Source: a virus
Length of the DNA stretch: 64,000 nt
Virus record (IMG/VR): IMGVR_UViG_3300040751_002893
Span: 25,684 to 89,683 of that record
Direction: 5' to 3' (one strand)
Every line of letters begins with the position of its first letter. Position 1 is the stretch's first letter. Under the pieces are notes generated by a model. The model worked only from the letters and a program-made list of their open reading frames with translations, did no database searches and was not told where the DNA came from. Below are positions 23,682 to 45,070 of the stretch, piece by piece. Both the position numbers and the translations under genes were made by a program.

Positions 23682-24095
23682 TTATTCTAAAGCTTTGCCG
23701 CTTTTAATGTTCGCAATGTATTCTTCTGTTTTTTCTATAGCATCTTGTATTTGCTTGTCATACATCAAACCTCTTTCTGAGTCTGGCATGTCTTCTTTTT
23801 GTTTACGAAGCTGTTGTAGGGTTTTTTCTGCATCTGCAAGATTCATTTTTCCTTTCTGTGAAGCTTCAGGGCGACCTGGGCTCATTCGTTCATCAGGAGG
23901 AAGCATGCCTCTACTTTTAAACTCATCTTCAATATCGCGCAACGTTCCAAATGATCTTGGGTCATCATCATAAGCATAGATATCATGTTGCTGCTTAAGT
24001 TCATCATCAGATAAGCCTTTAAGATTCATTTCTTTTAGAACAACTTGAAGCTCTTCCTTGATAAGTTGCTTAAGTGTTTGGTTTGTTAATTTCAT
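23682..24095 (-). CDS. MKLT-tag protein
   Basis: 137 residues. MKLTNQTLKQLIKEELQVVL is an intact shared helix; DDDPRSFGTLRDIEDEFKSR and a charged coiled coil (LADAEKTLQQLRKQKEDM) follow. Last gene of the left arm before a gene-free GC-rich gap. Confidence 0.75.
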   Translation of the reverse strand: MKLTNQTLKQLIKEELQVVLKEMNLKGLSDDELKQQHDIYAYDDDPRSFGTLRDIEDEFKSRGMLPPDERMSPGRPEASQKGKMNLADAEKTLQQLRKQKEDMPDSERGLMYDKQIQDAIEKTEEYIANIKSGKALE

Positions 24096-24336
24096 TTGTA
24101 TATCTCCTTGAAACTCGGAAATTTTTTCCCGATTTTTTTTTACACCTTAATTAGTCCTCCACTACATAAAGAGCCCACCCCCTTAAAAACCCAAATCTGG
24201 AAATTTTCTGTGTGTGGCGCGGGTGTATCTGGCCGCCGGCCGAAAAGCTAGGTTCTAAGCCACTTATTTCAAATCGGTATGCTCTAGGGGCAGGAGGAGG
24301 GGGACCCCCCCCTGCGCGAAAACGCGCTTTGAACCT
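24096..24336. other. Gene-free GC-rich junction between late-type and early-type arms
   Basis: 241 bp with no ORF. It contains, left to right, a plus-strand terminator-like hairpin (24115-24141), a GC-rich segment with GGCCGCCGGCC, GGGGGACCCCCC (about 24299-24312) and the perfect hairpin GCGCG-AAAA-CGCGC (24314-24327). Base composition is far above its surroundings. A genome terminus, packaging site or recombination junction are possibilities. Confidence 0.5.
24115..24141 (+). terminator. Possible plus-strand terminator
   Basis: TCGGAAAT...TTTCCCGA stem followed by nine T on the plus strand; the reverse direction has no T tract. All genes here are on the minus strand, so it would stop right-going RNA. 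Confidence 0.4.
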
Positions 24337-24858
24337 TTATTTTTTTCGGCGGCCAAAAAGCGTTCTGTCTTTGGGTGCGATGAAAACGTCGTTACAAGCT
24401 ACGTTATCGTGGTTGCGGTATTGCACTTCACCGAAGAGCGCGCGATAGTGACGTAGATAGTGCTCATTCACCTTGACCGAATAGGTAGACACCCACTGCC
24501 AGTTCCTAGTAGCGTAGGACTTGAATAGGCCACGAAGAGCCATGCGGAGGTCATGGCGGATACGAGAAAACTTGTCACCCGCTGCGGCCATGGTCTCCTT
24601 ACGGGGCACGTAGGTAGGGTCGACGAGGAGAATGGAGGTCATAAGCCGACTTTCGATGGTCTCCCAATACTCGTCACAGGCAGCGTAGACGGTATCTAGG
24701 TCGGACTGTGCGTAGACTTTGTGCCTCAAACCTACATTTTGCCACACTTGATATGCGGTCATCTTGTGGAGGTTGCCGCTGTGCGCTGATACTGTGTGCG
24801 TGTGCTTGATGTATTGAACGGACTTGAGAGGGATAAAGAGAGGATTGATTGTTTTCAT
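24337..24858 (-). CDS. Hypothetical protein
   Basis: 173 residues; MKTINPLFIPLKSVQYIKH start, then helical segments (ESRLMTSILLVDPTYVPRKE; RIRHDLRMALRGLFKSYATR). GC content clearly higher than the left arm, marking the change of region. No motif recognised. Confidence 0.65.
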   Translation of the reverse strand: MKTINPLFIPLKSVQYIKHTHTVSAHSGNLHKMTAYQVWQNVGLRHKVYAQSDLDTVYAACDEYWETIESRLMTSILLVDPTYVPRKETMAAAGDKFSRIRHDLRMALRGLFKSYATRNWQWVSTYSVKVNEHYLRHYRALFGEVQYRNHDNVACNDVFIAPKDRTLFGRRKK

Positions 24859-24911
24859 AGGTAGATCCTAGGTTATGGAGTAAGTAAGTGAAAAGGTAGG
24901 TTGGAAGCGGC

Positions 24912-25280
24912 TTATTGATCGAGATCGAAACCATCTTCCATGAGGTCAGCAAGAACATCTTCTGGGCAATCTTCAAAAAGCTCCTTTGTACTTGCCTTTT
25001 TGCTCTTGCGCTTTTTAGACTTAGAAGCTGGTTTATCGTAGGTTCCATCATCAATCTGGCGCATAGCGATTTCCATATTGAGTTCTTCGATACCCTCAGC
25101 AAGGTCGTTGTATCGCTGGTTGCTCGCATTGATACGTTCTACCTGTGTTTTCGAAAGACCGTTAAAGTCAGCGATCGTCCAGTCAGTGCGCATACGACGC
25201 GCATTGAACGGATCATTGTCATGAGGACAAACTTTGTCCAGTTGGAGGTGGCAAGAACAAGAAAAGTAACGAATAGACAT
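24912..25280 (-). CDS. Hypothetical protein with N-terminal cysteines and basic linker
   Basis: 122 residues. CSCHLQLDKVCPHDND near the start could bind zinc; PASKSKKRKSKKASTK is a basic linker and the tail is acidic (EDCPEDVLADLMEDGFDLD). SD AGGAG. Unknown. Confidence 0.62.
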   Translation of the reverse strand: MSIRYFSCSCHLQLDKVCPHDNDPFNARRMRTDWTIADFNGLSKTQVERINASNQRYNDLAEGIEELNMEIAMRQIDDGTYDKPASKSKKRKSKKASTKELFEDCPEDVLADLMEDGFDLDQ

Positions 25281-25357
25281 ATTGTCTCCTATAGTGAATG
25301 TTACAGTATATAAACAGAAAAAAAGTGAAAAAAGGACAGGTTTTTGGTGAGAGTCTC

Positions 25358-25372
25358 GGACAGTTTATGACC
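25358..25372 (-). promoter_or_regulatory. GGACA palindrome (divergent) before 24912-25280
   Basis: GGACAGTTTATGACC at the stop of the upstream gene. The -10-like TATACT is nearer the start, but no good -35 is visible, so promoter activity is less clear here. Confidence 0.5.
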
Positions 25373-25667
25373 GCACATTTTTTGGTCTCTCCATCTCAAA
25401 AGTCAGTTTGTCCATAACTGAAACAAGGTGGATTTGAGCGGTTGCAAGGTTCGCACAAGGGATACGAACCCATTGGGTTTTGTCGACGTCTACATCGATT
25501 TCCCAACCTTCGATAATGTAGTTACAACCTGTGTCTTTGATACGACCCCATACACGAGTGTGCTTTGAAGCACCGTTAGAGCGCATTGTGTTCACCCAAA
25601 CGCTGTGAGAAGGGCCAAAGCCGCGTGATTTGGTGATAGATGGGGTTGTAAGTGCGTTATTGGACAT
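25365..25667 (-). CDS. Hypothetical protein with three stacked start sites
   Basis: 100 residues from ATG 25667 (MSNNALTTPSITKSRGFGPS). Two more in-frame ATGs upstream (25718 and 25778) each have a strong SD. The N-terminal extension repeats L-S-N-N-T-G, because the leader AACAACACxGGAG is duplicated. The core ends LTFEMERPKNVRS. Function unknown; which start is used is open. Confidence 0.6.
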   Translation of the reverse strand: MSNNALTTPSITKSRGFGPSHSVWVNTMRSNGASKHTRVWGRIKDTGCNYIIEGWEIDVDVDKTQWVRIPCANLATAQIHLVSVMDKLTFEMERPKNVRS

Positions 25668-25811
25668 AGTGTCTCCTGTGTTGTTAGAAAGTGAGTTAGA
25701 AAGTGTATTTTGAGCCATGTGGCCTCCAGTGTTGTTAGAGAGGTGGTTATTGAAAAGTACGAAGTGATCAAGTCTCATGTGATCTCCTGAAAAGGTAGGT
25801 TAAAGGTGGGT

Positions 25812-25892
25812 TTATTCAAAAAGAGAAAGGAAATAGAAGAGGCCGATTGAGCCGATAAAAGCAAGGAAAAAAGAAGTGATAGCAATAAGCAT
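25812..25892 (-). CDS. Tiny membrane peptide (26 aa)
   Basis: MLIAITSFFLAFIGSIGLFY followed by FLSLFE; one transmembrane helix. Proper SD (GGAG, 7 bases) and its own promoter with double GGACA box, so expression looks deliberate. Confidence 0.65.
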   Translation of the reverse strand: MLIAITSFFLAFIGSIGLFYFLSLFE

Positions 25893-25928
25893 TTTTTGTC
25901 TCCGGGTTGTTTTGATTATACTATAATA

Positions 25929-25990
25929 TAACATGGTGAAAAGGGTCAAGTCAAGGTCTCGGACAGTTTGTGACCGGACAGTTTGTGTCC
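25929..25990 (-). promoter_or_regulatory. Promoter with two adjacent GGACA boxes, for the 26-aa membrane peptide
   Basis: Boxes 25961-25975 (GGACAGTTTGTGACC) and 25976-25990 (GGACAGTTTGTGTCC) abut end to end; then TTGACT, 18 bp, TATATT on the minus strand. Confidence 0.7.
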
Positions 25991-26190
25991 TACCATACGA
26001 GCCAGTCATATTGGCGAACAAGCTCTTCAGTTTGGCACTGATCCAAATCATAGGATAAAACTACGTTTTCAAGGGATTGAGCGAACTCTGGTTCTGCGCT
26101 TTCTTCAAGCTCGGAAACCAAGGTTTCAAGTGCTTTTTCGATGAGATCCCACTCTTCGGTGGTGAAATAGTTGTTTATGTTCTGAAGCAT
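25990..26190 (-). CDS. Small acidic helical protein
   Basis: 66 residues from ATG 26190 (SD AGAGG), MLQNINNYFTTEEWDLIEKA then acidic helices and RQYDWLVW at the end. The frame extends to 26301 but that part covers the promoter. Unknown. Confidence 0.65.
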   Translation of the reverse strand: MLQNINNYFTTEEWDLIEKALETLVSELEESAEPEFAQSLENVVLSYDLDQCQTEELVRQYDWLVW

Positions 26191-26242
26191 AAATCCTCTG
26201 GGAAAGAAAAAAAAATTTTGAGTGTCGAACCATCCGACATCT

Positions 26243-26310
26243 ATAATATGACCTGTTGGGAGGCTTTTGTCAATATGGGCGGACAACTTTTGACCGGACA
26301 CTTTTTGTCC
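26243..26310 (-). promoter_or_regulatory. Promoter with two adjacent GGACA boxes, for 25990-26190
   Basis: Boxes 26281-26295 and 26296-26310 abut; seven bases separate them from TTGACA, followed by a CATATTATA -10 region on the minus strand. Confidence 0.7.
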
Positions 26311-26331
26311 GGGCTCCGGAGCCTTTAATTT

Positions 26332-26366
26332 GAGTTATGAAAAGTTTTTTTGGCACGCTTTTTGCA
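26332..26366 (+). promoter_or_regulatory. Sigma-54 promoter 1 of triplet
   Basis: GAGTTATG (26332-26339), 10 bp, TTGGCACG-CTTT-TTGCA (26350-26366): perfect -24/-12 consensus with correct GG-to-GC spacing. Confidence 0.8.
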
Positions 26367-26379
26367 ATAGAATCATTTT

Positions 26380-26414
26380 GAGTTATGACAAATAAAATTG
26401 GCACGGATCTTGCA
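26380..26414 (+). promoter_or_regulatory. Sigma-54 promoter 2 of triplet
   Basis: GAGTTATG, 10 bp, TTGGCACG-GATC-TTGCA, exactly 48 bp after unit 1. Confidence 0.8.
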
Positions 26415-26427
26415 AGGGATATATTTT

Positions 26428-26462
26428 GAGTTATGAAAAGTTTTTTTGGCACACTTCTTGCA
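26428..26462 (+). promoter_or_regulatory. Sigma-54 promoter 3 of triplet
   Basis: GAGTTATG, 10 bp, TTGGCACA-CTTC-TTGCA, again 48 bp on. Confidence 0.8.
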
Positions 26463-26579
26463 AGGCCGATTTTGAGAATGAGAATCAATATCAATAGGAT
26501 CTCCGGACAAAAAATGACCGCAAGGAGTTTTATCTCCCTACGGGAGCGACCTTTATTCAAGGCGCACGCAAGGCCGTTT

Positions 26580-26957
26580 TTAGAGCATGCGACGCATGGT
26601 CATTTCGACACTCTCAAAGCCTTTGAGCTTGAATGTGGTGTAGGTTGGATCATGCTGGATGATGGTGTAACCATCTTGATCTGTGAAGATTGCAAAGTCA
26701 TCCTCCGCGCTCAAGTGTGCCTCATTCTGTGCTACCTGTTGCTCACGTGTGAGGTTATTGTATTCCATACACAAGGCCATGAGCCGCTGGTGCTGGAAGT
26801 CGCTCACTGGGAGAGCCATATACACCTTTACGAAGTGCGCATTGGAGATAATGTTCTTATGGCCAATGAGAGAAGAGTCGAGAGTATAGAGAAAATCAGT
26901 AGTTGGGAGAGTAGAGTATTTCATAGTAGTCTCGTTGTTAGTGTTAGATGTAGTCAT
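26580..26957 (-). CDS. Hypothetical protein
   Basis: 125 residues from ATG 26957 (SD AGGA). MTTSNTNNETTMKYSTLPTT; middle HFVKVYMALPVSDFQHQRLM; end FESVEMTMRRML. A long in-frame extension to 27236 crosses a G-rich repeat and another gene and is rejected. Unknown. Confidence 0.6.
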   Translation of the reverse strand: MTTSNTNNETTMKYSTLPTTDFLYTLDSSLIGHKNIISNAHFVKVYMALPVSDFQHQRLMALCMEYNNLTREQQVAQNEAHLSAEDDFAIFTDQDGYTIIQHDPTYTTFKLKGFESVEMTMRRML

Positions 26958-26970
26958 GTGTATATCCTGT

Positions 26971-27027
26971 GGAGGGGTGTAGGGTAGGGGGGTAGTAGTG
27001 TAGTATGTAGGGTGGTAGGCTAGTGGG
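26971..27027 (+). repeat. G-rich spacer (GGGTAGTA-type)
   Basis: Runs of G3-G6 separated by TA/TAGTA on the plus strand, so the minus-strand leader RNA is C/A-rich. Related tracts at 28.76, 32.2 and 45.9 kb. Confidence 0.6.
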
Positions 27028-27453
27028 CTACTTGTCGCTGGGGTGATCCATACGACCTGTGCTTGCATAGCCCCAGTTGTATCCGGTGTTTCCATCCGGT
27101 GCATAGCCATGCTCTCGGATACGCTTGTTGTCGGTGATCTCAATGCTTCGCACAATGAGGTTCCCATAGGGATCTTTTGCATAGCCTGTATTGAACTGCG
27201 CCATGAGCATGTTGAACTGGGCTGGGGTAAGCTCAATCTCTACGGAGGAAGCGTTCTTAAGGCAGATGGTGAGTGTGAGGTCACTCTTCTGAGAACGCAT
27301 TACATTGATGTTGTACTCCATGAGTACGGTATCGACTTGCTCTTGGGTGAGGCCATAAGTCTCTTGGACTTCTTCGATAGCGTTGGTTGCAAAGTCACCT
27401 CGGTTGATGAGCTTGGTGAGGAGGTTGAGAGAGTTAAAAATGATTGTGGACAT
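27028..27453 (-). CDS. Hypothetical protein
   Basis: 141 residues from ATG 27453 (SD CGGAG). Helical N-terminus IIFNSLNLLTKLINRGDFAT, beta middle (SDLTLTICLKNASSVEIEL), C-terminus GYAPDGNTGYNWGYAS. Unknown. Confidence 0.65.
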   Translation of the reverse strand: MSTIIFNSLNLLTKLINRGDFATNAIEEVQETYGLTQEQVDTVLMEYNINVMRSQKSDLTLTICLKNASSVEIELTPAQFNMLMAQFNTGYAKDPYGNLIVRSIEITDNKRIREHGYAPDGNTGYNWGYASTGRMDHPSDK

Positions 27454-27546
27454 AGTGTCTCCGAATAAAGGTTTTAGGGGGTTTGGACTTCGGAATGATT
27501 CAGCAGTCTTGAAACTCATTATCTCATTCGTTTTCGTCATATATAT

Positions 27547-27597
27547 AATATAAGCTGTTTTGTTGGTCTTGTCAAATGTGGTGGACAGTTTTTGTCC
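27547..27597 (-). promoter_or_regulatory. GGACA-cassette promoter (7-bp gap type) for 27028-27453
   Basis: Box GGACAGTTTTTGTCC (27583-27597), 7 bp, TTGACA, 17 bp, TATATT on the minus strand. Confidence 0.8.
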
Positions 27598-27599
27598 TA

Positions 27600-27911
27600 C
27601 TAGTGTTCTAAGGGGAATCTGTGGAGGTTTTGATACATGGTTCGGATCTCTCGTATCTGAGCTTTGTCAAGGCCATAGTAGTAAGCCTGAGTCAAGAGAG
27701 AACCATAGAAAGTATCGTCACCATAGTGAAGATCTTCTACAATGTTGTCAAAAGCTTCGATTGTAGCAGTCTCATAGAGGTCTTGCATACACTCCTTGTT
27801 GAAACAGTGCATACAAACTACCTTATCGTCATTGTTTCGGAAGTGTCCAATGTCATCCTCCGGAATGAAGGTAGAGCAATCTGAGCAGTGAATGAAAATA
27901 TTGTGAGCCAT
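27600..27911 (-). CDS. Zinc-ribbon protein
   Basis: 103 residues. HCSDCSTFIPEDD and VVCMHCFNKEC form a C-x2-C / C-x2-C ribbon in the first 40 residues; the rest is helical and acidic (YETATIEAFDNIVEDLHYGD). SD GGAGG. Possibly nucleic-acid or protein binding; unknown role. Confidence 0.7.
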   Translation of the reverse strand: MAHNIFIHCSDCSTFIPEDDIGHFRNNDDKVVCMHCFNKECMQDLYETATIEAFDNIVEDLHYGDDTFYGSLLTQAYYYGLDKAQIREIRTMYQNLHRFPLEH

Positions 27912-27956
27912 GAGGCCTCCAAAAGAATGTTGTTGTCGGTCGTTGCCGATACTTAT

Positions 27957-28007
27957 AGCTTATAGCATTGGAACGATTTTGTCAAATGTGGTGGTCAAAA
28001 TATGTCC
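27957..28007 (-). promoter_or_regulatory. GGACA-cassette promoter (7-bp gap type) for the zinc-ribbon gene
   Basis: GGTCAAAATATGTCC (27993-28007), 7 bp, TTGACA, 17 bp, TAAGCT. Confidence 0.65.
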
Positions 28008-28052
28008 GGTCTGGCTCTGAGCGTAGCTCAAACGGAGGTTGGGGTCGGATTT

Positions 28053-28087
28053 GAGTTATGTATATTTTTTTTGGCACACTTCTTGCA
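28053..28087 (+). promoter_or_regulatory. Sigma-54 promoter
   Basis: GAGTTATG, 10 bp, TTGGCACA-CTTC-TTGCA. Confidence 0.8.
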
Positions 28088-28199
28088 AACACGAAAAAAG
28101 TCTTGACACGTTTTTATCTCGCTCTGGGAGCAACCTAAACTCACGCTATCTGTATGGCCGTTTTTGGAGCTTTGAAAAGTCTTGACGCAAAGCTCATTT

Positions 28200-28234
28200 G
28201 AGTTATGGTAAGAAGTTTTGGCACACCTTTTGCA
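28200..28234 (+). promoter_or_regulatory. Sigma-54 promoter
   Basis: GAGTTATG, 10 bp, TTGGCACA-CCTT-TTGCA; followed within 15 bp by GAGAATGAGAATCAAAATCA, the same start-proximal sequence as after the 26.4 kb triplet. Confidence 0.8.
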
Positions 28235-28287
28235 AGGGATCAAAATGAGAATGAGAATCAAAATCAAAAAGGATTGGGCGCATACGC

Positions 28288-28310
28288 AAAAAAGCTCTTA
28301 AAAAGAGCTT
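28288..28310 (-). terminator. Rho-independent terminator of the 28.5-29.4 kb unit
   Basis: Minus strand AAGCTCTT, TTT loop, AAGAGCTT, then TTTT. Perfect 8-bp stem. Confidence 0.65.
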
Positions 28311-28396
28311 GGAAAAAATAGGCGATAATCGGAAAGTTTACGGAGTAAAAGGCGTTTTACATGTGGGAGCACTAGTTAGGTATAGGTGCGTGTGTT

Positions 28397-28413
28397 TTGG
28401 CATGGTTCTTGCT
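28397..28413 (+). promoter_or_regulatory. Weaker sigma-54-like box
   Basis: TTGGCATG-GTTC-TTGCT; conserved GG/GC spacing but no GAGTTATG at the fixed distance. Confidence 0.45.
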
Positions 28414-28514
28414 CTGATACGTCCACATATAAGGCACATTTTCAATACATCCATAACGCACATCCAACAAACATTTTCATAAAGTTTATTTCCTCCACCT
28501 TCTAGCCCATTCGT

Positions 28515-28739
28515 TTACTTGCGTTTGGGCTTTTTTGCACATAGCTTTCCACACGCTCTAGCGGGCTTGGGATTGGCTAGCTGACTATGCACAAGCTGAC
28601 GTTCTCTCATATCCATGAGGACACCAACAAGCTCAAGAGCTTCCAATAGCGTCATATCGCCTACGGCTTTATCAAGTCCGTTATCAATGATTGTGAGGGT
28701 TCTATCTATCAATGTGTCTAGTGTGTTCTGTGTATTCAT
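28515..28739 (-). CDS. Small helical protein with basic tail
   Basis: 74 residues: TLDTLIDRTLTIIDNGLDKA, EALELVGVLMDMRERQ, tail CGKLCAKKPKRK. SD GGAA. Directly after it the operon ends in a terminator. Unknown. Confidence 0.65.
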   Translation of the reverse strand: MNTQNTLDTLIDRTLTIIDNGLDKAVGDMTLLEALELVGVLMDMRERQLVHSQLANPKPARACGKLCAKKPKRK

Positions 28740-28760
28740 AGGAAGTTCCTTGGTTTTCGG

Positions 28761-28797
28761 TTGGGGGTAGGGTAGTAGGGTAGTAGGTTAGGGGATA
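28761..28797 (+). repeat. G-rich spacer (GGGTAGTA repeat)
   Basis: GGGGGTAGGGTAGTAGGGTA then GTAGGTTAGGGG; four G3+ runs, G-quadruplex-capable on the plus strand. Confidence 0.6.
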
Positions 28798-28802
28798 GGA
28801 TA

Positions 28803-28991
28803 CTAGCATGTGAAGTCAATCAGTTCCATGTCAAGATCAAACTCGTTCTGATAGTGATCGAACATATCTTGGTCTATTACTTCGTAACACTCATCTTCCT
28901 TGTTATGGATAAAGAAAGCAACGTAGTTGTAAGATACAGTGTCAAAGTAAAGAGCAGCGTTCTTATAAAAAGAGAAAGTTTTATTTTTCAT
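28803..28991 (-). CDS. Small acidic protein
   Basis: 62 residues, TFSFYKNAALYFDTVSYNYV then acidic end DMELIDFTC. SD GGAG. Unknown. Confidence 0.65.
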   Translation of the reverse strand: MKNKTFSFYKNAALYFDTVSYNYVAFFIHNKEDECYEVIDQDMFDHYQNEFDLDMELIDFTC

Positions 28992-29082
28992 GTGTTCTCC
29001 GATTGTTCAGTTTGATGGTGAGATATGAGAAGGTGATAGATACGGTTAGTTGTATGAGGGTTAGCGTCAATAGAGGGTTCAT
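28981..29082 (-). CDS. Tiny membrane peptide (33 aa)
   Basis: MNPLLTLTLIQLTVSITFSY with a short basic tail; one membrane helix. ATG overlaps the upstream stop (ATGA) and its end overlaps the downstream start, which supports translation. Confidence 0.6.
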   Translation of the reverse strand: MNPLLTLTLIQLTVSITFSYLTIKLNNRRTHEK

Positions 29083-29366
29083 TTCAGCACCTGCTTGCAG
29101 ATTAGAGGGATAGCGTATTCTTCATACGCATGTAGCATTTCTTGGAGGTTGCGATACGCTTGTCTCTTGCGTTGGATCTCTACAAGATCATTCACATAAG
29201 AACCATCGGGATTCTTTTGGTCTTGTAGCTCGTCAATCTCAATGTATAGGCAGTTCAAGTCTTTGTATAACTTTGAGAGGGTAGCTACTTCTGCGAAGTA
29301 TTCGTATCGGGTGTCCATAGTTCCGTTTCGGTATGCTTGTAGTGCAAGGTCAAGATAGTTTGTCAT
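29079..29366 (-). CDS. Helical hypothetical protein
   Basis: 95 residues from ATG 29366 (SD GGAG). Coiled-coil LYKDLNCLYIEIDELQDQ and IQRKRQAYRNLQEMLHAYEE. Unknown. Confidence 0.65.
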   Translation of the reverse strand: MTNYLDLALQAYRNGTMDTRYEYFAEVATLSKLYKDLNCLYIEIDELQDQKNPDGSYVNDLVEIQRKRQAYRNLQEMLHAYEEYAIPLICKQVLK

Positions 29367-29392
29367 GTTGTCTCCAGTTGTTCGGTACATCT

Positions 29393-29444
29393 ATAATATA
29401 ATCGGTTCTCAGCTATTGTCAAGTGTGGTGGACAAAATGTGTCC
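29393..29444 (-). promoter_or_regulatory. GGACA-cassette promoter (7-bp gap type) for 29079-29366
   Basis: GGACAAAATGTGTCC (29430-29444), 7 bp, TTGACA, TATTAT-like -10. Confidence 0.75.
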
Positions 29445-29445
29445 G

Positions 29446-29826
29446 TTAGTCCAGTTCCAGTTCGCATTGGTCATTGAGTTCATCACGTACAGTCTCGTAA
29501 CACTCATGGATGACTTCCCATCCTTGGACATAAACCCACATGTTGCAGACAGCCTCTGGAGAGGATAGGTCTGTGTGGACTTCTCCGAAGTTGTGTTGCT
29601 CATACTCTTGAACGTCACCGATCATATCGAAAGCAGAATCGCCCATCCATTGCTTAGCTTGGTAGTGACCAATGATGTAATAGTCTCGGTTAAAGATTTG
29701 GTCATGCAAGTCTGAAACATAAGCGTCTCGGAAGTCTTGGTTGTCCATGTATTCTGCGATCTCACGAAGTCGGTCAAGGCAAAAGTCTTTGATTTCTTTT
29801 TGGTTTTGTTGGTAAGTGAATGACAT
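29446..29826 (-). CDS. Acidic hypothetical protein
   Basis: 126 residues; FTYQQNQKEIKDFCLDRLRE, then AKQWMGDSAFDMIGDVQEYE and an acidic C-terminus. SD GGAG. Unknown. Confidence 0.68.
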   Translation of the reverse strand: MSFTYQQNQKEIKDFCLDRLREIAEYMDNQDFRDAYVSDLHDQIFNRDYYIIGHYQAKQWMGDSAFDMIGDVQEYEQHNFGEVHTDLSSPEAVCNMWVYVQGWEVIHECYETVRDELNDQCELELD

Positions 29827-29855
29827 ATTGTCTCCGTTGGTTGGGTTATATTAGT

Positions 29856-29899
29856 AATGTATCTGATTGGGGTGGAAAAGTCAAGGACAGAAAATGTCC
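29856..29899 (-). promoter_or_regulatory. GGACA-cassette promoter (abutting type) for 29446-29826
   Basis: GGACAGAAAATGTCC (29885-29899) directly followed on the minus strand by TTGACT, 17 bp, TACATT. Confidence 0.8.
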
Positions 29900-29901
29900 G
29901 T

Positions 29902-30063
29902 TTACACTGGTGTGGCTCTGAAGTCTTTTGCATTGCGTGGTGCTTTCTTGCGTGCCTTGCTGATAGCATCCTGTTTGGATGTGGCTTGCACTCGGATGAA
30001 TCCGTACTGCGCTCCAAAGTTTGCGCCTGTTGTATTGTATGTGTAGTCTACGAAATAAGTCAT
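29902..30063 (-). CDS. Small protein with helical basic C-terminus (53 aa)
   Basis: From ATG 30063 (SD CGGAG): TYFVDYTYNTTGANFGAQYG, then ATSKQDAISKARKKAPRNAK. Looks like a beta hairpin plus basic helix, possibly nucleic-acid binding. Unknown. Confidence 0.6.
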   Translation of the reverse strand: MTYFVDYTYNTTGANFGAQYGFIRVQATSKQDAISKARKKAPRNAKDFRATPV

Positions 30064-30077
30064 GTTGTTCTCCGTTG

Positions 30078-30329
30078 TTAGCATGAATATGGTTGGTTGT
30101 TGTCTTGTTGTTTTCGTGGTGTGCAGTGACCGTTCTCTATAAGAGCGTCTGCTGTTCTATGGAACCATCCTTGTAGCTGATAGGCCATCCCAGTGTCGAT
30201 AAGCACTTGCCAAGCTTGGATGTATTGCTCTTGGCTCTCGGCTTGATAGACACCCTCAGCGATCATGATTGCATCAAAGGTGGGCATTTCTTCTTCAAAG
30301 GGTAGTTCAAGTTGTATCATTTTAGACAT
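30078..30329 (-). CDS. Small hypothetical protein
   Basis: 83 residues; QLELPFEEEMPTFDAIMIAE then amphipathic helices and a Q/N-rich tail. SD CGGAG. Unknown. Confidence 0.62.
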   Translation of the reverse strand: MSKMIQLELPFEEEMPTFDAIMIAEGVYQAESQEQYIQAWQVLIDTGMAYQLQGWFHRTADALIENGHCTPRKQQDNNQPYSC

Positions 30330-30350
30330 ATTGTCTCCGTTGTTTGGGTT

Positions 30351-30521
30351 CTAGTTATTTGGTTTGAGTTGTACCATATCGGCTTTAACAAAAGGTTTCC
30401 ATCTGGTCGAATAACCTGCTACATTTGCTGTTCTTTTAGAACGTTTGTACCATCTGACACCTTCAAAATAGAAGTATGATCGTACTGGGATTTGACTGAA
30501 TGAAATATGTTTGTTGGTCAT
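30351..30521 (-). CDS. Small basic aromatic protein (56 aa)
   Basis: MTNKHISFSQIPVRSYFYFE, VRWYKRSKRTANVAGYSTRW; high K/R/Y/W. SD CGGAG. Candidate nucleic-acid binder. Confidence 0.6.
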   Translation of the reverse strand: MTNKHISFSQIPVRSYFYFEGVRWYKRSKRTANVAGYSTRWKPFVKADMVQLKPNN

Positions 30522-30549
30522 AGTGACTCCGTTGGTTGGTGATGTTTAT

Positions 30550-30593
30550 AATGTATCTCGTTTGGTTGGAAAAGTCAAGGACACTTTTTGTCC
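30550..30593 (-). promoter_or_regulatory. GGACA-cassette promoter (abutting) for 30351-30521
   Basis: GGACACTTTTTGTCC (30579-30593) then TTGACT, 17 bp, TACATT. The TGA inside the -35 is the stop of 30575-30781. Confidence 0.8.
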
Positions 30594-30781
30594 TTTTCTA
30601 TAAAGTCCACAAGGTCAACGTCAACCTTGACAATGCGTGAACCTGTTTCGCAGTTAGGGAAATGCACAGTCAGTTCTGTGCTAGGGTAAAGCCACCCTGT
30701 GGATCTATAGTCCGTAACTACGCCTATTCCAAAGAACTTGTGCTGTTTTGTTTTTTTACGCTTTACTAGTTTACCAATCAT
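30575..30781 (-). CDS. MIGKLV-type small protein ending in the promoter
   Basis: 68 residues; MIGKLVKRKKTKQHKFFGIG, strands with LTVHFPNCETGSRI, end DLVDFIEKDKKCP. Last six codons are encoded by the GGACA box and the stop TGA by the -35 of the next promoter. SH3-like small barrel predicted from strand pattern. Confidence 0.65.
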   Translation of the reverse strand: MIGKLVKRKKTKQHKFFGIGVVTDYRSTGWLYPSTELTVHFPNCETGSRIVKVDVDLVDFIEKDKKCP

Positions 30782-30812
30782 TTTAACTCCGTTGTTGGTT
30801 GGTGATGTTTAT

Positions 30813-30856
30813 AATGTATCTCGTTTGGTTGGTTTAGTCAAGGACATTTTTTGACC
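30813..30856 (-). promoter_or_regulatory. GGACA-cassette promoter (abutting) for 30575-30781
   Basis: GGACATTTTTTGACC (30842-30856), TTGACT, 17 bp, TACATT. Confidence 0.8.
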
Positions 30857-30989
30857 GTTTGTCTATTTTCCCTCTGCAAGCCATCTTGTTGGCCTGTTTT
30901 TTCTTGTCTCCATGAGATCCTGAGCCTGAGCCTTGACGTTTGATATGCTCAAGATGTGTGAGATTGCGAGGTTGTAACTTCTTTTTCAT
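30834..30989 (-). CDS. Very basic small protein (51 aa)
   Basis: MKKKLQPRNLTHLEHIKRQG, GSGSGSHGDKKKQANKMACR, end SKNVLD read through the GGACA box and -35. Net charge strongly positive. Possible RNA/DNA binding peptide. Confidence 0.55.
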   Translation of the reverse strand: MKKKLQPRNLTHLEHIKRQGSGSGSHGDKKKQANKMACRGKIDKRSKNVLD

Positions 30990-30997
30990 GGTTCTTC

Positions 30998-31177
30998 CTA
31001 GTTTAAGTCGGTTGGATCAAAACAAGCTTTGATAAGCTCCATGAGAGCCTGTTCTGCTATCTCTCGGAGTTGTGGTGGGGTTCCATCTATATTCAAGGCT
31101 TGCAAAGCAAGATTGATGGATACAAAGGTTTCGTGGTCTTTTCCATCAAAGATGGAGGATAAAGGCATTTTGTTCAT
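30998..31177 (-). CDS. Small helical protein (59 aa)
   Basis: MNKMPLSSIFDGKDHETFVS, then PPQLREIAEQALMELIKACF. No SD stronger than GGAGA before the ATG. Unknown. Confidence 0.6.
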   Translation of the reverse strand: MNKMPLSSIFDGKDHETFVSINLALQALNIDGTPPQLREIAEQALMELIKACFDPTDLN

Positions 31178-31186
31178 GGTTGTCTC

Positions 31187-31444
31187 CTATTGAAGAGGTT
31201 CTATTGTGTTGCTTATGTCGTTTAGGGTGTCGATAGACAAACCAGTAACGAATTCATATTCAGTACAGGTTCGGTAGCCACCCATACCGTTTGGGGTTTG
31301 TCTTGTGGTATGGGAAAGATAGACTACTGGCTTGCCATTTACGAGGATTAGATCGCCTTTCGTAAGGCTTTCAGCCCACATGTTCTTACCATGGTTTGGA
31401 TAGTGTTTGTGGAAGTTCTTTGCGAAGTTAAGCATGGTTCTCAT
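31187..31444 (-). CDS. KGDLI-type small protein
   Basis: 85 residues; N-terminal helix NFAKNFHKHYPNHGKNMW, then SLTKGDLILVNGKPVVYLSH and EYEFVTGLSIDTL. The KGDL strand sits internally rather than at the start. SD CGGAG. Confidence 0.65.
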   Translation of the reverse strand: MRTMLNFAKNFHKHYPNHGKNMWAESLTKGDLILVNGKPVVYLSHTTRQTPNGMGGYRTCTEYEFVTGLSIDTLNDISNTIEPLQ

Positions 31445-31473
31445 TTTGTCTCCGTTTCAGTTGGTGATGTTAG

Positions 31474-31524
31474 TAATGTAACCCATTGAGAAAAAAAGTC
31501 AAATCGGGAGGACAGAATATGTCC
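31474..31524 (-). promoter_or_regulatory. GGACA-cassette promoter (7-bp gap type) for 31187-31444
   Basis: GGACAGAATATGTCC (31510-31524), 7 bp, TTGACT, then T-A-C-A-T-T near 31475-31480. Confidence 0.72.
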
Positions 31525-31569
31525 GGCAAGGGTTCGTTCCCTTTAGGGAACGGATTGAGGAACTGGTTT

Positions 31570-31604
31570 GAGTTACGTAAACTTTTTTTGGCATAGATAT
31601 TGCA
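31570..31604 (+). promoter_or_regulatory. Sigma-54 promoter
   Basis: GAGTTACG, 10 bp, TTGGCATA-GATA-TTGCA. Confidence 0.7.
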
Positions 31605-31646
31605 AGGGGTGTCTCTACTCTGAAACTGCCCCTCGCGCTATCTCAT

Positions 31647-31895
31647 TCACCGTTTGACTTTGATATGGTAGCTTGAACCTCGTTTATTGACATAGAGTGT
31701 CTCAATACCGTCCACATGCTCGTCACGTGCGATCGCATCAAGTAGGTGTTGCACGTCAAACTGTGTAACAGTTTCCTCGCTTATGACGTTCGCTACGAAG
31801 TCATGAAGATCTCCATCCCAATCACCCCAAAGGTTCTCTATGAAGTCAAGAGCCTCTTTCACTGCCTTGATGGTGACTGTTGTTTTATCCTTCAT
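31647..31895 (-). CDS. Small hypothetical protein
   Basis: 82 residues from ATG 31895 (SD GGAGG): TTVTIKAVKEALDFIENLWG, ETVTQFDVQHLLDAIARDE, end SSYHIKVKR. Unknown. Confidence 0.65.
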   Translation of the reverse strand: MKDKTTVTIKAVKEALDFIENLWGDWDGDLHDFVANVISEETVTQFDVQHLLDAIARDEHVDGIETLYVNKRGSSYHIKVKR

Positions 31896-32019
31896 TTTTG
31901 CCTCCGTAGTGAAAGGTGTCGTACTTGGTTGTGCGCTTGATCTCCTTTGGAGACAGGACACGCACTTGTGTTCCCTTACGTGTGGTGATAATCACCTTGT
32001 CCATTGTGTATTTACTCAT
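31885..32019 (-). CDS. Tiny basic protein (44 aa)
   Basis: From ATG 32019 (SD AGGAGG): SKYTMDKVIITTRKGTQVRV, SPKEIKRTTKYDTFHYGG. One KGTQVRV strand suggests a minimal version of the KGDL barrel type. Confidence 0.6.
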   Translation of the reverse strand: MSKYTMDKVIITTRKGTQVRVLSPKEIKRTTKYDTFHYGGKNEG

Positions 32020-32186
32020 GTATCCTCCTGTGGTTGTGTGAGTTGTGTGTAGTAGAAGCGCAGACTGCTCTCGCTTATGTGAGCAAAGCAATCGGGAGCG
32101 TCAATGTATCTGAGTGTGTAGAATCCATCTTTGACCGCAGTGCATACGCATATGCCGCTCTCGCTCTTCCATAGTGTGCCGACCAT
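32016..32186 (-). CDS. MVGTLW-type small protein (56 aa)
   Basis: MVGTLWKSESGICVCTAVKD, GFYTLRYIDAPDCFAH, end QLTQPQEDT. Overlaps the next gene by ATGA. Same family as the two genes upstream. Confidence 0.68.
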   Translation of the reverse strand: MVGTLWKSESGICVCTAVKDGFYTLRYIDAPDCFAHISESSLRFYYTQLTQPQEDT

Positions 32187-32198
32187 AGTTTCTCCTTG

Positions 32199-32230
32199 GT
32201 GGGGGTAGGGTAGTAGGGTAGTAGGTTAGG
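32199..32230 (+). repeat. G-rich spacer (GGGTAGTA repeat)
   Basis: GTGGGGGTAGGGTAGTAGGG then TAGTAGGTTAGG, almost identical to the 28.76 kb copy. Its left end covers the stop and last codons of 32226-32390. Confidence 0.6.
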
Positions 32231-32390
32231 CTATCTTGGTCATGGATCTCTCTACGAAGAAATCACGAAGTGTCACATGACCTAGACTGGGTGTTGTAAA
32301 CACATAGTACAACGCCCCACCTGTTGTATAGTATTTGTCTTTGAGAATGTATATCTTGCCTTTTCGACATTTCCATAGTGTACCAATCAT
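32226..32390 (-). CDS. MIGTLW-type small protein (54 aa)
   Basis: MIGTLWKCRKGKIYILKDKY, then GALYYVFTTPSLGHVTLRDF. Clear relative of 32016-32186 and 32387-32569. Confidence 0.68.
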   Translation of the reverse strand: MIGTLWKCRKGKIYILKDKYYTTGGALYYVFTTPSLGHVTLRDFFVERSMTKIA

Positions 32391-32569
32391 TCTTCTTCCG
32401 TTGGTGTTAAGGGTTCAAAGTATCTATCCAGTTCTCGTAGTCCTTTGACTACCCATGTGTCTCCGTTTGTTATACAAACCATGGTGAAGTAGGGTATGTG
32501 TGCATAGTCTATGCTTATGCAAGCGTATATGTGCTTACTGTGTCTTGATCTATACAACATCCCTATCAT
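32387..32569 (-). CDS. MIGMLY-type small protein (60 aa)
   Basis: MIGMLYRSRHSKHIYACISI, PYFTMVCITNGDTWVVKGLR, tail PLTPTEEE. Third member of this tandem trio. First small gene after the VWA-metallopeptidase. Confidence 0.68.
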   Translation of the reverse strand: MIGMLYRSRHSKHIYACISIDYAHIPYFTMVCITNGDTWVVKGLRELDRYFEPLTPTEEE

Positions 32570-32577
32570 GTTATCAC

Positions 32578-33816
32578 CTAGTCTATCGCTATGACACGTT
32601 CATTAGTTGTGAAGTAAGGGTTCTCCTTGCCTCGTTGGTCAGTCATCCACATGCGTTGGCACTTGCTGGCTATCGGCTTTGGAGCCTCCATATCTGTGAG
32701 GATGATGTGACCATCGAAACCGTTCTCATTGACGTATCGTGTCGGAGCGTCAAAGCATGTGCCGCCACACTTGACACGTTCCCATGTCTTGCGTTCACCT
32801 TTCTTCCAAGTGTAGACAAGACTCTCGTCCACTTCAGTATCAAAAGGCACAACGGTAAACTCTGCAAGGCTTGATAGGCTATTGAGTTCTGCGAAGAATG
32901 AGGCAAGCATTTCATCCGATACAGAACCAGACTGGTCAATGCTGATAGCAATCTTGGCTTGACGTGTAACCTTGCGACCGGCATGAATGTATGGAAACCT
33001 ACGGTTAAGTCTACGAACAGTCGAACGCTTATTGCTACGCTGTGAAGTCTTGATGAAGTATCTCAGAACCTTGCGCCAGTCAATCTTGGGAGTGATAGCA
33101 TCCATGATCTGCTTACGAACGTCTGCCGATACAGATCCCCAGCCTTGACCGCTTGAAGCATCCTTGGCGGCTTTCTCCATAGCATCTTTCAAACGCTCTT
33201 TGGCCATAGCCTTTGTCTCTTCGTCAACGTCACCCCAACCGCTATGGTCGTCAAGAACGTGGTCACCAAGAGAAGAGCCTTGGCCTTGGCCTTGTGATGG
33301 ATCGCCTTGGCCTTGACCGCCTTGACCGTCACCTTGGCCTTGACCATCGTCTTTCTTGAACTGCTCATCTTCTTCAATAATCTTAAGATAAGCCTCAGCA
33401 GATAAACCGACAGGATAGTCTGCGAAAGGTGTATCGGCTTTGCCGGGTATACAGCCACCATCGGGCAACATGTCAGCAATATGACTGTTGATTGCAAGGT
33501 CTGTCGCAACGTTCCACTTCATAGACATACCCTCAGCCGGAAGTCGTGTGGTGACATGCTCAAAGATGATGTGGTAAAACTCGTGCATTAGAACACCAAG
33601 CTTTTGCTTGTCTGTAAGGCTAGCCATGAACTCTGGATTGTAAAGCATCTCAAACTGTGCTGACTGTGGATTGATACGGACACCAGCAGTTGGAATGTGC
33701 TTGGATGGTGCTTTGTGAATACGTCTTGAAAGACTTGCGAAGAACGGTTCTTGTTGTAGCAAACGGAAAGTGTGCATGTTCAAGTCAAACTTTTCTGTTG
33801 TTTCGTTATCACTCAT
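32578..33816 (-). CDS. VWA-like metallopeptidase, partner of the MoxR ATPase
   Basis: 412 residues. ~70-100 KLGVLMHEFYHIIFEHVTTR gives an HExxH site; ~155-185 is a Q/G/D-rich low-complexity linker (GQGDGQGGQGQGDPSQG); the C-terminal VWA-like part has AISIDQSGSVSDEMLASFF (D-x-S-x-S MIDAS), GGTCFDAP and ILTDMEAP. This is the COG3864-type partner usually encoded beside a MoxR AAA ATPase, found about 0.9 kb upstream. The pair probably works as a chaperone-like or metal-dependent remodelling machine; target unknown. Confidence 0.88.
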   Translation of the reverse strand: MSDNETTEKFDLNMHTFRLLQQEPFFASLSRRIHKAPSKHIPTAGVRINPQSAQFEMLYNPEFMASLTDKQKLGVLMHEFYHIIFEHVTTRLPAEGMSMKWNVATDLAINSHIADMLPDGGCIPGKADTPFADYPVGLSAEAYLKIIEEDEQFKKDDGQGQGDGQGGQGQGDPSQGQGQGSSLGDHVLDDHSGWGDVDEETKAMAKERLKDAMEKAAKDASSGQGWGSVSADVRKQIMDAITPKIDWRKVLRYFIKTSQRSNKRSTVRRLNRRFPYIHAGRKVTRQAKIAISIDQSGSVSDEMLASFFAELNSLSSLAEFTVVPFDTEVDESLVYTWKKGERKTWERVKCGGTCFDAPTRYVNENGFDGHIILTDMEAPKPIASKCQRMWMTDQRGKENPYFTTNERVIAID

Positions 33817-34072
33817 TGGAATCTCCTTGTTGGGGTGATATAGATAACTTATCCGATTGGGATGGTTTTGTCAAACGTGGTGGACAAAAACTGTCCGGTA
33901 GTTTAGAAAGCTCTATTCTGTCTAGGTTGGTGTGCGCTTCCTCTATCTTTTGAGCTAGGGATTTGACTTCCAAAGGCTCCGACAGTTCTTCAAGCTCTGG
34001 TGGAAACTCAATCTTTTGTCTTTGTATTGCGTAATACGTTATATTGCTGTATTGTAGCTTTGGTCTACTCAT
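33809..34072 (-). CDS. Hypothetical protein overlapping a cassette promoter
   Basis: 87 residues, SD GGAGG. PKLQYSNITYYAIQRQKIEF, helical middle, then SKLPDSFCPPRLTKPSQSDK, which is the reading of the GGACA box and following promoter; it ends inside the next gene's start. The last third may be non-conserved read-through. Confidence 0.55.
   Translation of the reverse strand: MSRPKLQYSNITYYAIQRQKIEFPPELEELSEPLEVKSLAQKIEEAHTNLDRIELSKLPDSFCPPRLTKPSQSDKLSISPQQGDSNE
33846..33896 (-). promoter_or_regulatory. GGACA-cassette promoter (7-bp gap type) for the VWA-metallopeptidase
   Basis: GGACAAAAACTGTCC (33882-33896), 7 bp, TTGACA, 17 bp, TAAGTT; lies inside the 3' end of 33809-34072. Confidence 0.75.
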
Positions 34073-34274
34073 TGGTTCCTCCTGTCTTGAAACCCATAGG
34101 TGCTTTCTTCTTGGGCTTTTCTGCCTTGGGAAGTGCTTGTGGTGGCATAGCCATACCCATAAGGGCTTGCAAGGGTATTCCCATAGAGTTGCCTTGTGGT
34201 TGCATAGCCATGATTAGCTTGGATAATAGCTCGTCTGATATGTTCAGTGTAATATTAATCTCGTTATTGCTCAT
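34065..34274 (-). CDS. Small protein, M/P/Q-rich
   Basis: 69 residues from ATG 34274 (SD GGAG). INITLNISDELLSKLIMAMQ then GNSMGIPLQALMGMAMPPQA and a basic end. Overlaps both neighbours. Between MoxR and VWA genes, so possibly linked to their function. Confidence 0.6.
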   Translation of the reverse strand: MSNNEINITLNISDELLSKLIMAMQPQGNSMGIPLQALMGMAMPPQALPKAEKPKKKAPMGFKTGGTNE

Positions 34275-34605
34275 TGGTTTCTCCTGCATTGTCTACAATG
34301 CTTTTAAGTAGTTGTTGCTTGTGGGTTGGTAGTAAGGACTTTTGGTGGTTTAGGGTTTCCACGTCGGGCATTAGGAACAAAGACCAGTCTTTGAGAGTCT
34401 TGGATAGTTGCCTTGCCTGTTTCAATGTGATGTTGTGTCTGATGGAATAGCCTGTGGACATGTGTGATAATGTCCATGACTTTTCATCCTCTTTACGATG
34501 GACATAGAAAGGGAAGTCATTTCCGTAGGAACCATCACAATATGTCCAAACTGGATGATTATCTTCAAATGTTCGTATCTTGAATGTACCTTTGCGTATT
34601 CTCAT
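34264..34605 (-). CDS. Hypothetical protein
   Basis: 113 residues from ATG 34605 (SD GGAG). RIRKGTFKIRTFEDNHPVWT, beta-rich, then DVETLNHQKSLLPTHKQQLL. A hairpin CTCCTTG/CAAGGAG (about 34640-34663) lies in its leader. Unknown. Confidence 0.62.
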   Translation of the reverse strand: MRIRKGTFKIRTFEDNHPVWTYCDGSYGNDFPFYVHRKEDEKSWTLSHMSTGYSIRHNITLKQARQLSKTLKDWSLFLMPDVETLNHQKSLLPTHKQQLLKSIVDNAGETNEQ

Positions 34606-34679
34606 AGGTGTCTCCATAGAAAGGGATTATAGTCTCCTTGTTTCAAGGCACAAGGAGCCAAAGCCAGCGAGGTGAAATG

Positions 34680-35741
34680 TTAGTTACCAGCGTTTAGGAT
34701 ACCGACAACATAGTCTTGGATGGAAGTGCCGTCTACTTCAATCGCCCAAAGTTTAGCGATATTGTAGGTTGATTCGTCAGTTTGAGCCATGGACTGCCAC
34801 AGAACCATGACGATCTCTGATGGAAGTTGCAAGAAATATTTTGCAAGGTTATCAAGACGAGTGTCTGATAGACGTTCTGCAAAGATGTTCTTTGCTTTCA
34901 TCTTTTCGACCATAGCATTGTGGTCATTGATCTTCCAACCTTTGATCTTGTCGAACTTACCATCATCTAGAAGATCTTCGATAGTGACTTGACGATCGTA
35001 CTTGTCAAGGAAGTCTTTGAAAGCTACTGCACCCTCAAAGCCGATGAAAGAGCAAGCGATATGGTAGGTTACAGATGAACCCTCAATCTCGTTACCCATT
35101 CCAGACAAAGTCTGAGACAATCGTTCCCAAGAACGTCTTGATGGGTAAACCTTGTTAGGCTCGTAGTCATCATTGTGTTCAAGATGGTTGTGGTTCTGAT
35201 TGATGAAGTCCCAGATCTCTTGTGCTACGTTACCCTTAGCCCAATCAAGCCAATCTTCTACCGTAGGTTCTACGTCAAAGACGGTATAGCGATCAAGCTC
35301 TGCTGGATCCATCTCACCTACTTGGTATTGAGAACCATGCTCTCCACCGTTTACACAAGCAAAGATAAGGGTTTCGGGATGCAGACTGCGACCGGCAATC
35401 TTGCGGCTATCACAAAGCTCAAAGATACCTTGGCGGACTTCAAGCGTAGCTCGGTCTACTTCGTCAAGGAAGAGGACGACAGGAGTATCACAAGCAGTCT
35501 TGAACCACTTTGGTGGACACCACTCAGTTACATCATTGTCTGATTGCTTTGGCAAGCCAAGCAAGTCACCCTCAGTCATTTGGCTAGCACGTCTTTCGAC
35601 AACAGGCAAACCGAGTTCTTTGGCTTTTTGGTATACGATGGTAGATTTACCGATACCATGCCGACCACGAACGAGGACAGGAAACTTTGCGTTAAGGATA
35701 GGGTTGATTACGTTAGAGAATGTTTTGAAGTCAATAGCCAT
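34680..35741 (-). CDS. MoxR-type AAA+ ATPase
   Basis: 353 residues. Walker A VRGRHGIGKSTIVYQ, Walker B VVLFLDEVDRA, sensor region FACVNGGEHGSQYQVGEMDP with AELDRYTVFDVEPT, and R-S-W-E-R-L sensor 2. Family members assemble as rings and work with VWA proteins; the VWA-metallopeptidase at 32.6-33.8 kb is the evident partner. Own perfect promoter with GGACA box. Confidence 0.9.
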   Translation of the reverse strand: MAIDFKTFSNVINPILNAKFPVLVRGRHGIGKSTIVYQKAKELGLPVVERRASQMTEGDLLGLPKQSDNDVTEWCPPKWFKTACDTPVVLFLDEVDRATLEVRQGIFELCDSRKIAGRSLHPETLIFACVNGGEHGSQYQVGEMDPAELDRYTVFDVEPTVEDWLDWAKGNVAQEIWDFINQNHNHLEHNDDYEPNKVYPSRRSWERLSQTLSGMGNEIEGSSVTYHIACSFIGFEGAVAFKDFLDKYDRQVTIEDLLDDGKFDKIKGWKINDHNAMVEKMKAKNIFAERLSDTRLDNLAKYFLQLPSEIVMVLWQSMAQTDESTYNIAKLWAIEVDGTSIQDYVVGILNAGN

Positions 35742-35792
35742 GGGAGGCCTCCGTTTGTTTTGTTGTTAGTTCTTCGTTATGAAGATGTTTAT

Positions 35793-35836
35793 ATTATAAC
35801 TAGGTTAGGGTTTGTTGTCAAGGACATTTTTTGTCC
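35793..35836 (-). promoter_or_regulatory. GGACA-cassette promoter (abutting) for MoxR
   Basis: GGACATTTTTTGTCC (35822-35836) then TTGACA, 17 bp, TATAAT: full consensus, the strongest cassette promoter seen. Confidence 0.85.
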
Positions 35837-35871
35837 GAAGTTTATTTTTTTTCTTGTTGGTGGGTTCTCGT

Positions 35872-35877
35872 TTACAT
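35872..35877 (-). pseudogene. Start-stop remnant (ATG TAA) behind a complete promoter and SD
   Basis: Minus strand CGGAGACAAAA then ATGTAA. Promoter and SD are like those of neighbouring genes, but the reading frame is a single codon. Either a deleted gene or a functional start-stop element. Confidence 0.45.
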
Positions 35878-35906
35878 TTTTGTCTCCGTCAGTTGCTGAT
35901 GTTTAT

Positions 35907-35950
35907 AATGTATCCTGTTCACTTCGATTCGTCAAGGACATTTTTTGTCC
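35907..35950 (-). promoter_or_regulatory. GGACA-cassette promoter (abutting) upstream of the start-stop element
   Basis: GGACATTTTTTGTCC (35936-35950), TTGACG, 17 bp, TACATT. Confidence 0.75.
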
Positions 35951-36068
35951 GCTCATCTTTTTTTCTTTTGGGCTGGCTATAGGTTGCCCACTGATCAAGC
36001 AGAAATGCAGTCATAAGGACTATCCCTGTGTTTATAAGGAACATGTAAAAAGCATTGTGATGAATCAT
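35919..36068 (-). CDS. Small membrane protein (49 aa)
   Basis: MIHHNAFYMFLINTGIVLMT with one hydrophobic helix, then SQPKRKKDERTKNVLDESK, the end being read through the GGACA box. SD CGGAG. Confidence 0.6.
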   Translation of the reverse strand: MIHHNAFYMFLINTGIVLMTAFLLDQWATYSQPKRKKDERTKNVLDESK

Positions 36069-45041: not shown

Positions 45042-45070
45042 TTGACAAATTATATGAAGTTTGTTAAAAT
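45042..45070 (+). promoter_or_regulatory. Sigma-70 promoter, plus strand
   Basis: TTGACA, 17 bp, TAAAAT (11 of 12 consensus). No plus-strand gene follows. Confidence 0.6.

Follow-up and report, generated by a model that had tools for sequence, protein, structure and literature searches.

Antisense arrays of near-consensus sigma-54 sites in a phage lineage: possible docking sites for the host RpoN holoenzyme

Noncoding spacers of a 64,000-nucleotide stretch of DNA from a large uncultured phage (hereafter the window; positions 25684 to 89683 of the 89,683-bp IMG/VR virus record IMGVR_UViG_3300040751_002893) contain clusters of near-consensus sigma-54 sites, all of them oriented against the genes. 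Nearly all genes of the window lie on the minus strand, among them those that by inspection we take to encode a PolIII-type DNA polymerase, GroEL, PhoH, a ClpP-like protease and a MoxR ATPase/VWA pair. We favor the reading that the arrays are docking or capture (decoy) sites for the host RpoN holoenzyme, rather than ordinary promoters, with a probability of roughly 0.45. At least three noncoding arrays would dock the host RNA polymerase carrying RpoN (sigma-54), and the box that stands at a fixed distance from each near-consensus –24/–12 core probably binds another protein. The docked holoenzyme would stay silent, with the host RpoN captured and the host sigma-54 output lowered; the arrays perhaps occupy the spacer adjoining divergent early promoters rather than drive a gene. 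We infer RpoN binding, occupancy, titration and the identity of the box protein from the sequence. The sigma-54 holoenzyme binds as a closed and silent complex until an activator remodels it, and most E. coli sites are bound in this manner (PMC4591121). As this binding is stable and silent until the activator acts, the arrays would most likely capture the holoenzyme and not drive a gene.

The motif GAGTTATG-N10-TTGGCAC-N5-TTGC has six exact matches on the plus strand of the window, at 26332, 26380, 26428, 28053, 28200 and 45313, compared with none in 100 dinucleotide shuffles. The N10 spacing holds only for the motif written with TTGGCAC, and it becomes N11 if counted to TGGCAC. When GTTAYG is allowed, further units appear at 45140, 45229 and 31570. 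The sites were scored with a matrix (PSSM) derived from 42 intergenic sense sites of E. coli mapped by ChIP-seq (PMC4591121, Table 1), chosen to avoid a home-made consensus. The ten best sites in 64 kb are all on the plus strand, score 18.2–22.1 bits and conform to the –24/–12 element TGGCAYR-N4-TTGCW of sigma-54-dependent promoters, and the eleventh scores 13.0. The mean maximum in 30 Markov controls was 14.2 and the highest 18.5, and with the same matrix the 42 mapped E. coli sites themselves reach no more than 20.8 bits (median 16.6). Against this median of 16.6, the units of the phage clade have a median of 20.2 bits. Variation within the phage cores parallels that of the E. coli sites as well: TGGCA is followed by C or T, and then by A or G. 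The sigma-54 reading given in a preliminary description of this DNA holds insofar as the –24/–12 match equals that of the best E. coli sites; promoters with RNA starts 12 bp after the GC are a possible but less probable role.

Three clusters and a single unit make up the set. The 26.4-kb triplet (26332–26365, 26380–26413 and 26428–26461, plus strand), found by both the exact motif and the PSSM, consists of almost identical, regularly spaced units. The 28-kb cluster lies in a gap of 603 bp (27912–28514) that is flanked by two minus-strand genes, and its units are directed toward the upstream neighbor, on its 3′ side, and away from the divergent gene start. Both complete units that had been described here are present on the plus strand: the GAGTTATG box with core TTGGCACACTTCTTGCA at 28053–28086 (core from 28071; 20.2 bits), and the same box with core TTGGCACACCTTTTGCA at 28200–28233 (core from 28218; 20.0 bits). 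They share strand and N10 spacing with the triplet, as had been claimed. The supposed weaker third unit is a good plus-strand core, TTGGCATGGTTCTTGCT at 28397–28413 (18.3 bits). As it has no GAGTTATG box and is missing from the corresponding gap of the related contig G003, we regard it as a lone core and not a unit. Beyond the preliminary description are the opposition of all units to the genes, a third cluster at 45140–45346 and a single unit, GAGTTACGTAAA plus TGGCATAGATATTGC, at 31570–31603 (plus strand), which has a syntenic single unit at 97.2 kb of G003. The third cluster, also on the plus strand, comprises GTTATGTAAA plus a core at 45140–45173 (found by the GTTAYG motif scan and the PSSM), a unit at 45229–45262 with the highest score of the window (22.1 bits), and an exact-motif unit, likewise found by the PSSM, at 45313–45346. 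These are noncoding clusters of several predicted high-affinity sites for one host factor, with affinity read from the score.

Conservation in related phages bears on the origin of the arrays. Fourteen contigs (about 12 of them independent) hold 60 composite units, each opposite to the gene strand. With the E. coli PSSM alone, the sites of the clade that reach at least 16 bits number 56 in antisense and 3 in sense orientation. The box is found at the identical offset, with at most two mismatches, in 50 of the 56 antisense sites, and the exceptions are mostly boxes departing from TTAYGTAAA, or lone cores. G003 has counterparts to all three clusters and to the single unit, in the same region and order, and the third cluster has a counterpart in most other contigs of the clade. 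Copy number and spacing vary, with 48 to 98 bp between neighbors and 147 bp at 28 kb. Median protein identity to the phage of the window falls to 44–57% in several array-bearing contigs. Spacer DNA that is under no constraint would be expected to be difficult to recognize at this divergence; the units are kept at the same loci. The same picture emerges with a motif-free anchor, the relatives of the cupin gene adjoining the third cluster: of the fifteen best-scoring relatives, 12 have contigs that extend into the gap, and every one of these shows two or three antisense sites there; the other 3 contigs end before it. No arrays were found in 65 more distant cupin-anchored relatives, in only part of which the local gene order is kept.

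The even spacing and near-identity of the 26.4-kb units are what one local duplication would leave, but the empty shuffles, the variable copy number and the synteny in diverged phages refute both chance and a single duplication, to which we assign a negligible probability. The preliminary description had judged these origins unlikely, a view that the top PSSM rank of the sites also bears out. It is very improbable that the units are gene-strand promoters for another phage or host sigma factor, with an accidental likeness to sigma-54. They do lie upstream of genes, in one shared orientation relative to them; however, the reverse reading shows on inspection no plausible –35/–10 spacing, several of the gaps already have gene-strand sigma-70 promoters of their own, and an independent E. 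coli matrix ranks the sites at the top of the window. We rejected this reading on the misfit in spacing.

In the phage family, the box consists of GTTAYGTAAA and an A/T tract; its distance to the core is constant, and the expected start lies about 45 bp downstream of it. It also occurs without the core. The outgroup contig L146 has a syntenic gap of 478 nt with four TTATGTAAA boxes, each followed by a T tract, in antisense orientation and with no –24/–12 core. Relatives of 184–192 kb, retrieved by searching with the box, have 8–10 coreless boxes (ATAGTTATGTAAAGTTTTTT), again antisense to the genes; the boxes lie in two places about 13–20 kb apart, approximately the distance that parts the 26–28 kb and 45 kb clusters of the window. 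The box is thus separable from the sigma-54 core and, being present coreless in other phages, the GAGTTATG box should not be taken for a mere component of a sigma-54 promoter. The comparison indicates that the box is probably older than the composite unit, and that the core would have been either gained by, or lost from, the box array. Because the coreless arrays are antisense too, the fixed orientation could be inherited, without directed sigma-54 transcription. A coding role for the ATG in GAGTTATG was ruled out, as most units read ATG TAA. On the minus strand of L146, the outgroup gap (7480–8010) has a perfect sigma-70 promoter that opposes the genes, with a hairpin and a T run no more than about 70 nt downstream; by inspection this is likely a small RNA. 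The sequence GTTATGTTAGTAATGTATCACG, which recurs at several places in the outgroup phages L209 and L215, is probably another promoter-linked element.

The coreless ATAGTTATGTAAAGTTTTTT arrays, in two places and with the same antisense orientation, would fit a model in which the GTTATGTAAA box array is the essential part, bound by a phage regulator of the divergent early genes and of an antisense sigma-70 promoter. The sigma-54 core would then be a lineage-specific accessory, and the holoenzyme docked on it would insulate the spacer or act there as a roadblock. A GTTATGTAAA-type box that stands shortly after the perfect sigma-70 promoter TTGACA-N17-TATAAT at 45382–45410 (plus strand) also accords with this model. 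We consider it unlikely, as it leaves unexplained both the near-perfect, invariant sigma-54 core and the box-free sigma-54 arrays of other phages.

A serious rival to docking, ranked second and possible though less probable, is that the units are genuine sigma-54-dependent promoters, from which short RNAs, antisense or noncoding, would be directed at the 3′ end of the neighboring early gene. Activation would come, in a given host state, from a host enhancer-binding protein or from a protein on the GTTATG box at –45. The –24/–12 elements are at consensus, every unit is oriented against the genes, and the spacing of the box is constant across deep divergence. The sigma-70 promoter at 45382 is on the strand of the sigma-54 units beside the third cluster and is recognizable in most relatives; a second sigma-70-like promoter, TTGACA-N17-TAAAAT at 45042–45070 (plus strand), lies upstream of this cluster. 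With these strong plus-strand promoters on its two flanks, antisense transcription at the third cluster is plausible. Contrary indications are that in the window no plus-strand gene lies downstream of the units and no plus-strand terminator was found after them. A role in conserved RNA structure was rejected as well, as the segments between and after the units (including those between the units of the third cluster) gave scattered folding z-scores, from about +2 to –3.5, with no consistent helix. In the phage records searched, which are fragments, sigma-54 (PF04552) was absent and the only match to the activator domain (PF00158) was the MoxR ATPase, below the cut-off. Within these records a phage-coded activator was rejected, and a host-encoded activator is possible. 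The usual sigma-54 enhancer sites lie farther from the start than –45, so a box in this position is nearer than expected, and units 48 bp apart would put each start on the next box.

Docking by the holoenzyme has contrary points of its own. A decoy requires no constant box, and decoy arrays would be expected to be free in orientation, but box and orientation are both strict in the lineage of the window. The plausible antisense transcription from the sigma-70 promoters around the third cluster also speaks against docking.

Sigma-54 arrays are also present in viruses outside this lineage. We scanned for two exact-consensus cores 28–58 bp apart, and at least 120 viral contig stretches contained such tandem cores, compared with 3 for a reversed-pattern control. 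Among the 80 viral loci that were fetched, 63 have at least three cores in a single cluster; these form about 50 sequence-distinct groups and range in GC from 0.30 to 0.68, and clusters contain up to ten cores. Since these arrays were picked by a consensus pattern, their core scores are biased upward. They lack the GTTAYG box, their strands often alternate, and the median core spacing is 29 bp. At least some of the contigs are clearly phages (terminase, portal, endolysin), and no array was found in an isolate. Overlap with ORFs of at least 100 aa, some of which may be spurious, was seen for 87 of 299 clustered cores. One 94-kb phage has 18 consensus cores, as compared with 16 in a 4.3-Mb genome. 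Tandem consensus cores were found in none of 369 gammaproteobacterial genomes, a single class. The composite of box and core gave five matches in 84,980 bacterial and archaeal species, one per locus and near chance by our estimate, and the reading of the unit as a host-type composite promoter was rejected on this basis. Within the collections searched, the arrays are restricted to viruses. The mixed strands of these arrays and their spacing of 20–30 bp, often too tight for conventional promoters, argue against the promoter alternative. Sites that are near-perfect, clustered and without a gene, and that in many phages are on mixed strands, make docking or capture of the holoenzyme the best explanation.

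Sites for other host factors occur beside the viral clusters. The DnaA box TTATCCACA has 21 copies in 63 kb near them, as compared with 2 in 449 kb, and compact TTATCCACA arrays directly adjoin sigma-54 core arrays in the spacers of L247, L251, L266, L274, L306 and L311. Fur-type palindromes near the clusters number 3, against 0. Both enrichments come from few independent loci and were sought after the fact. At about 525–580 of L310, the perfect Fur-type palindrome AATGAGAATGATTCTCATT ends a nine-core, alternating-strand sigma-54 array. In L005, L006, L007, L010 and L031 the GTTATGGAGCCAG-type context looks coding, and these were set aside as units. The window has no DnaA-box array and only one isolated TTATCCACA, at 17133.

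The spacers of the window contain further elements. Next to unit 2 of the 28-kb gap is a Fur-box-like stretch, GAGAATGAGAATCAAAATCAAA (28247–28268, plus strand), with a similar stretch at 26474; in G003 the near-perfect Fur-type sequence TGAGAATSATTCTCA stands beside the arrays, and most good TGAGAATSATTCTCA sites of this contig adjoin sigma-54 arrays. The hairpin and T run at 28292–28310 (minus strand), which resembles an intrinsic terminator, serves the minus-strand gene and is not a plus-strand terminator. Between the end of a gene and its terminator, at 28442–28480 (minus strand), is a conserved 12-codon ORF, MKMFVGCALWMY (MKVLFCGVLWMY in G003), with a GGAGG Shine–Dalgarno sequence, such that the stretch described as free of genes is indeed a gap of 603 bp between ORFs of annotated size, but with a small ORF inside. 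The repeated stem CTCCCTACGGGAGC/CTCGCTCTGGGAGC, which adjoins the arrays at 26534 and 28118 and is also present in G003, probably belongs to minus-strand terminators. A GGWCA-N5-TGWCC palindrome lies at 27993–28007, between the array and the divergent minus-strand gene start. Of the 28 such palindromes in the record, 26 fall between positions 25225 and 45003 of the window, a 20-kb stretch that spans the sigma-54 arrays; several are immediately upstream of minus-strand sigma-70 promoters, and the expectation from shuffling is about 0. The matching stretch has 13 sites in the relative G013 and only 1 in G003. The palindrome resembles an operator that would serve a regulon of early genes and that some relatives would have replaced. 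A block of 10–16 kb (about 24000–36000 of the window; 28–40 kb of oriented G000, 90–106 kb of G003 and 8–17 kb of G007) has raised GC and a reversed GC skew, third codon positions included; the gene strand is unchanged in it, and it contains the 26–28 kb arrays.

Comparisons of the terminase, polymerase, GroEL, sheath and VWA protein indicate a T4-like phage but gave no host. G003 (141 kb) has a terminase, portal and sheath of T4 type. The closest isolates, which are phages of Flavobacterium and Microcystis, share about 45% identity or less in the terminase. Rfam and tRNA searches gave no match.

Bacterial sigma-54 (RpoN) promoters share with the phage cores the TGGCAYR-N4-TTGCW element with its known tolerated variation, and the phage cores equal the best of the mapped E. 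coli sites in score (PMC4591121). Unlike these promoters, the phage sites are tandem arrays on the non-coding strand with no downstream gene, and each is preceded by the GTTAYGTAAA box in a constant position, some 45 bp before the expected start. The intragenic and antisense sigma-54 sites of E. coli are bound by transcriptionally silent holoenzyme, and many are antisense, as are the phage units; they occur singly, at dispersed positions that mostly fall within genes, whereas the phage sites are arrays in spacers (PMC4591121). Decoy sites are discussed in the same work. In the Pectobacterium phage Q19, a sigma-54-like factor has been claimed from a weak HHpred protein match (PMC7693777). This is the only other link between a phage and sigma-54 that we found in the open-access literature searched; the phage of the window differs in having DNA sites, with no such protein found. 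That literature contains no phage that uses or captures sigma-54 by DNA sites, which is weak evidence of absence.

The cluster of DnaA-titrating sites known as datA has in common with the arrays that noncoding DNA gathers high-affinity sites (here predicted) for a host DNA-binding protein, and in other viral contigs DnaA boxes adjoin the sigma-54 arrays. Here the factor is sigma-54, the location is a virus, the titration is proposed, and the window has no DnaA-box cluster. The sequences suggest that capture or use of host sigma-54 by phages, through DNA sites, is a previously unreported route. We propose, tentatively and at somewhat less than even odds, that many unrelated phages carry noncoding sponges of consensus sites, for sigma-54, in some cases for DnaA and perhaps for Fur. 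If so, the sponges would outnumber the host factor once the phage replicates, and would switch off or redirect host programs; in the lineage of the window, the sponge would be fused to the box of a phage regulator. Short noncoding DNA should then reduce RpoN-dependent expression. In many bacteria sigma-54 governs, among other functions, nitrogen use, motility and envelope stress. Its capture by virus-specific arrays would be a protein-free means of host takeover, invisible to gene-based annotation.
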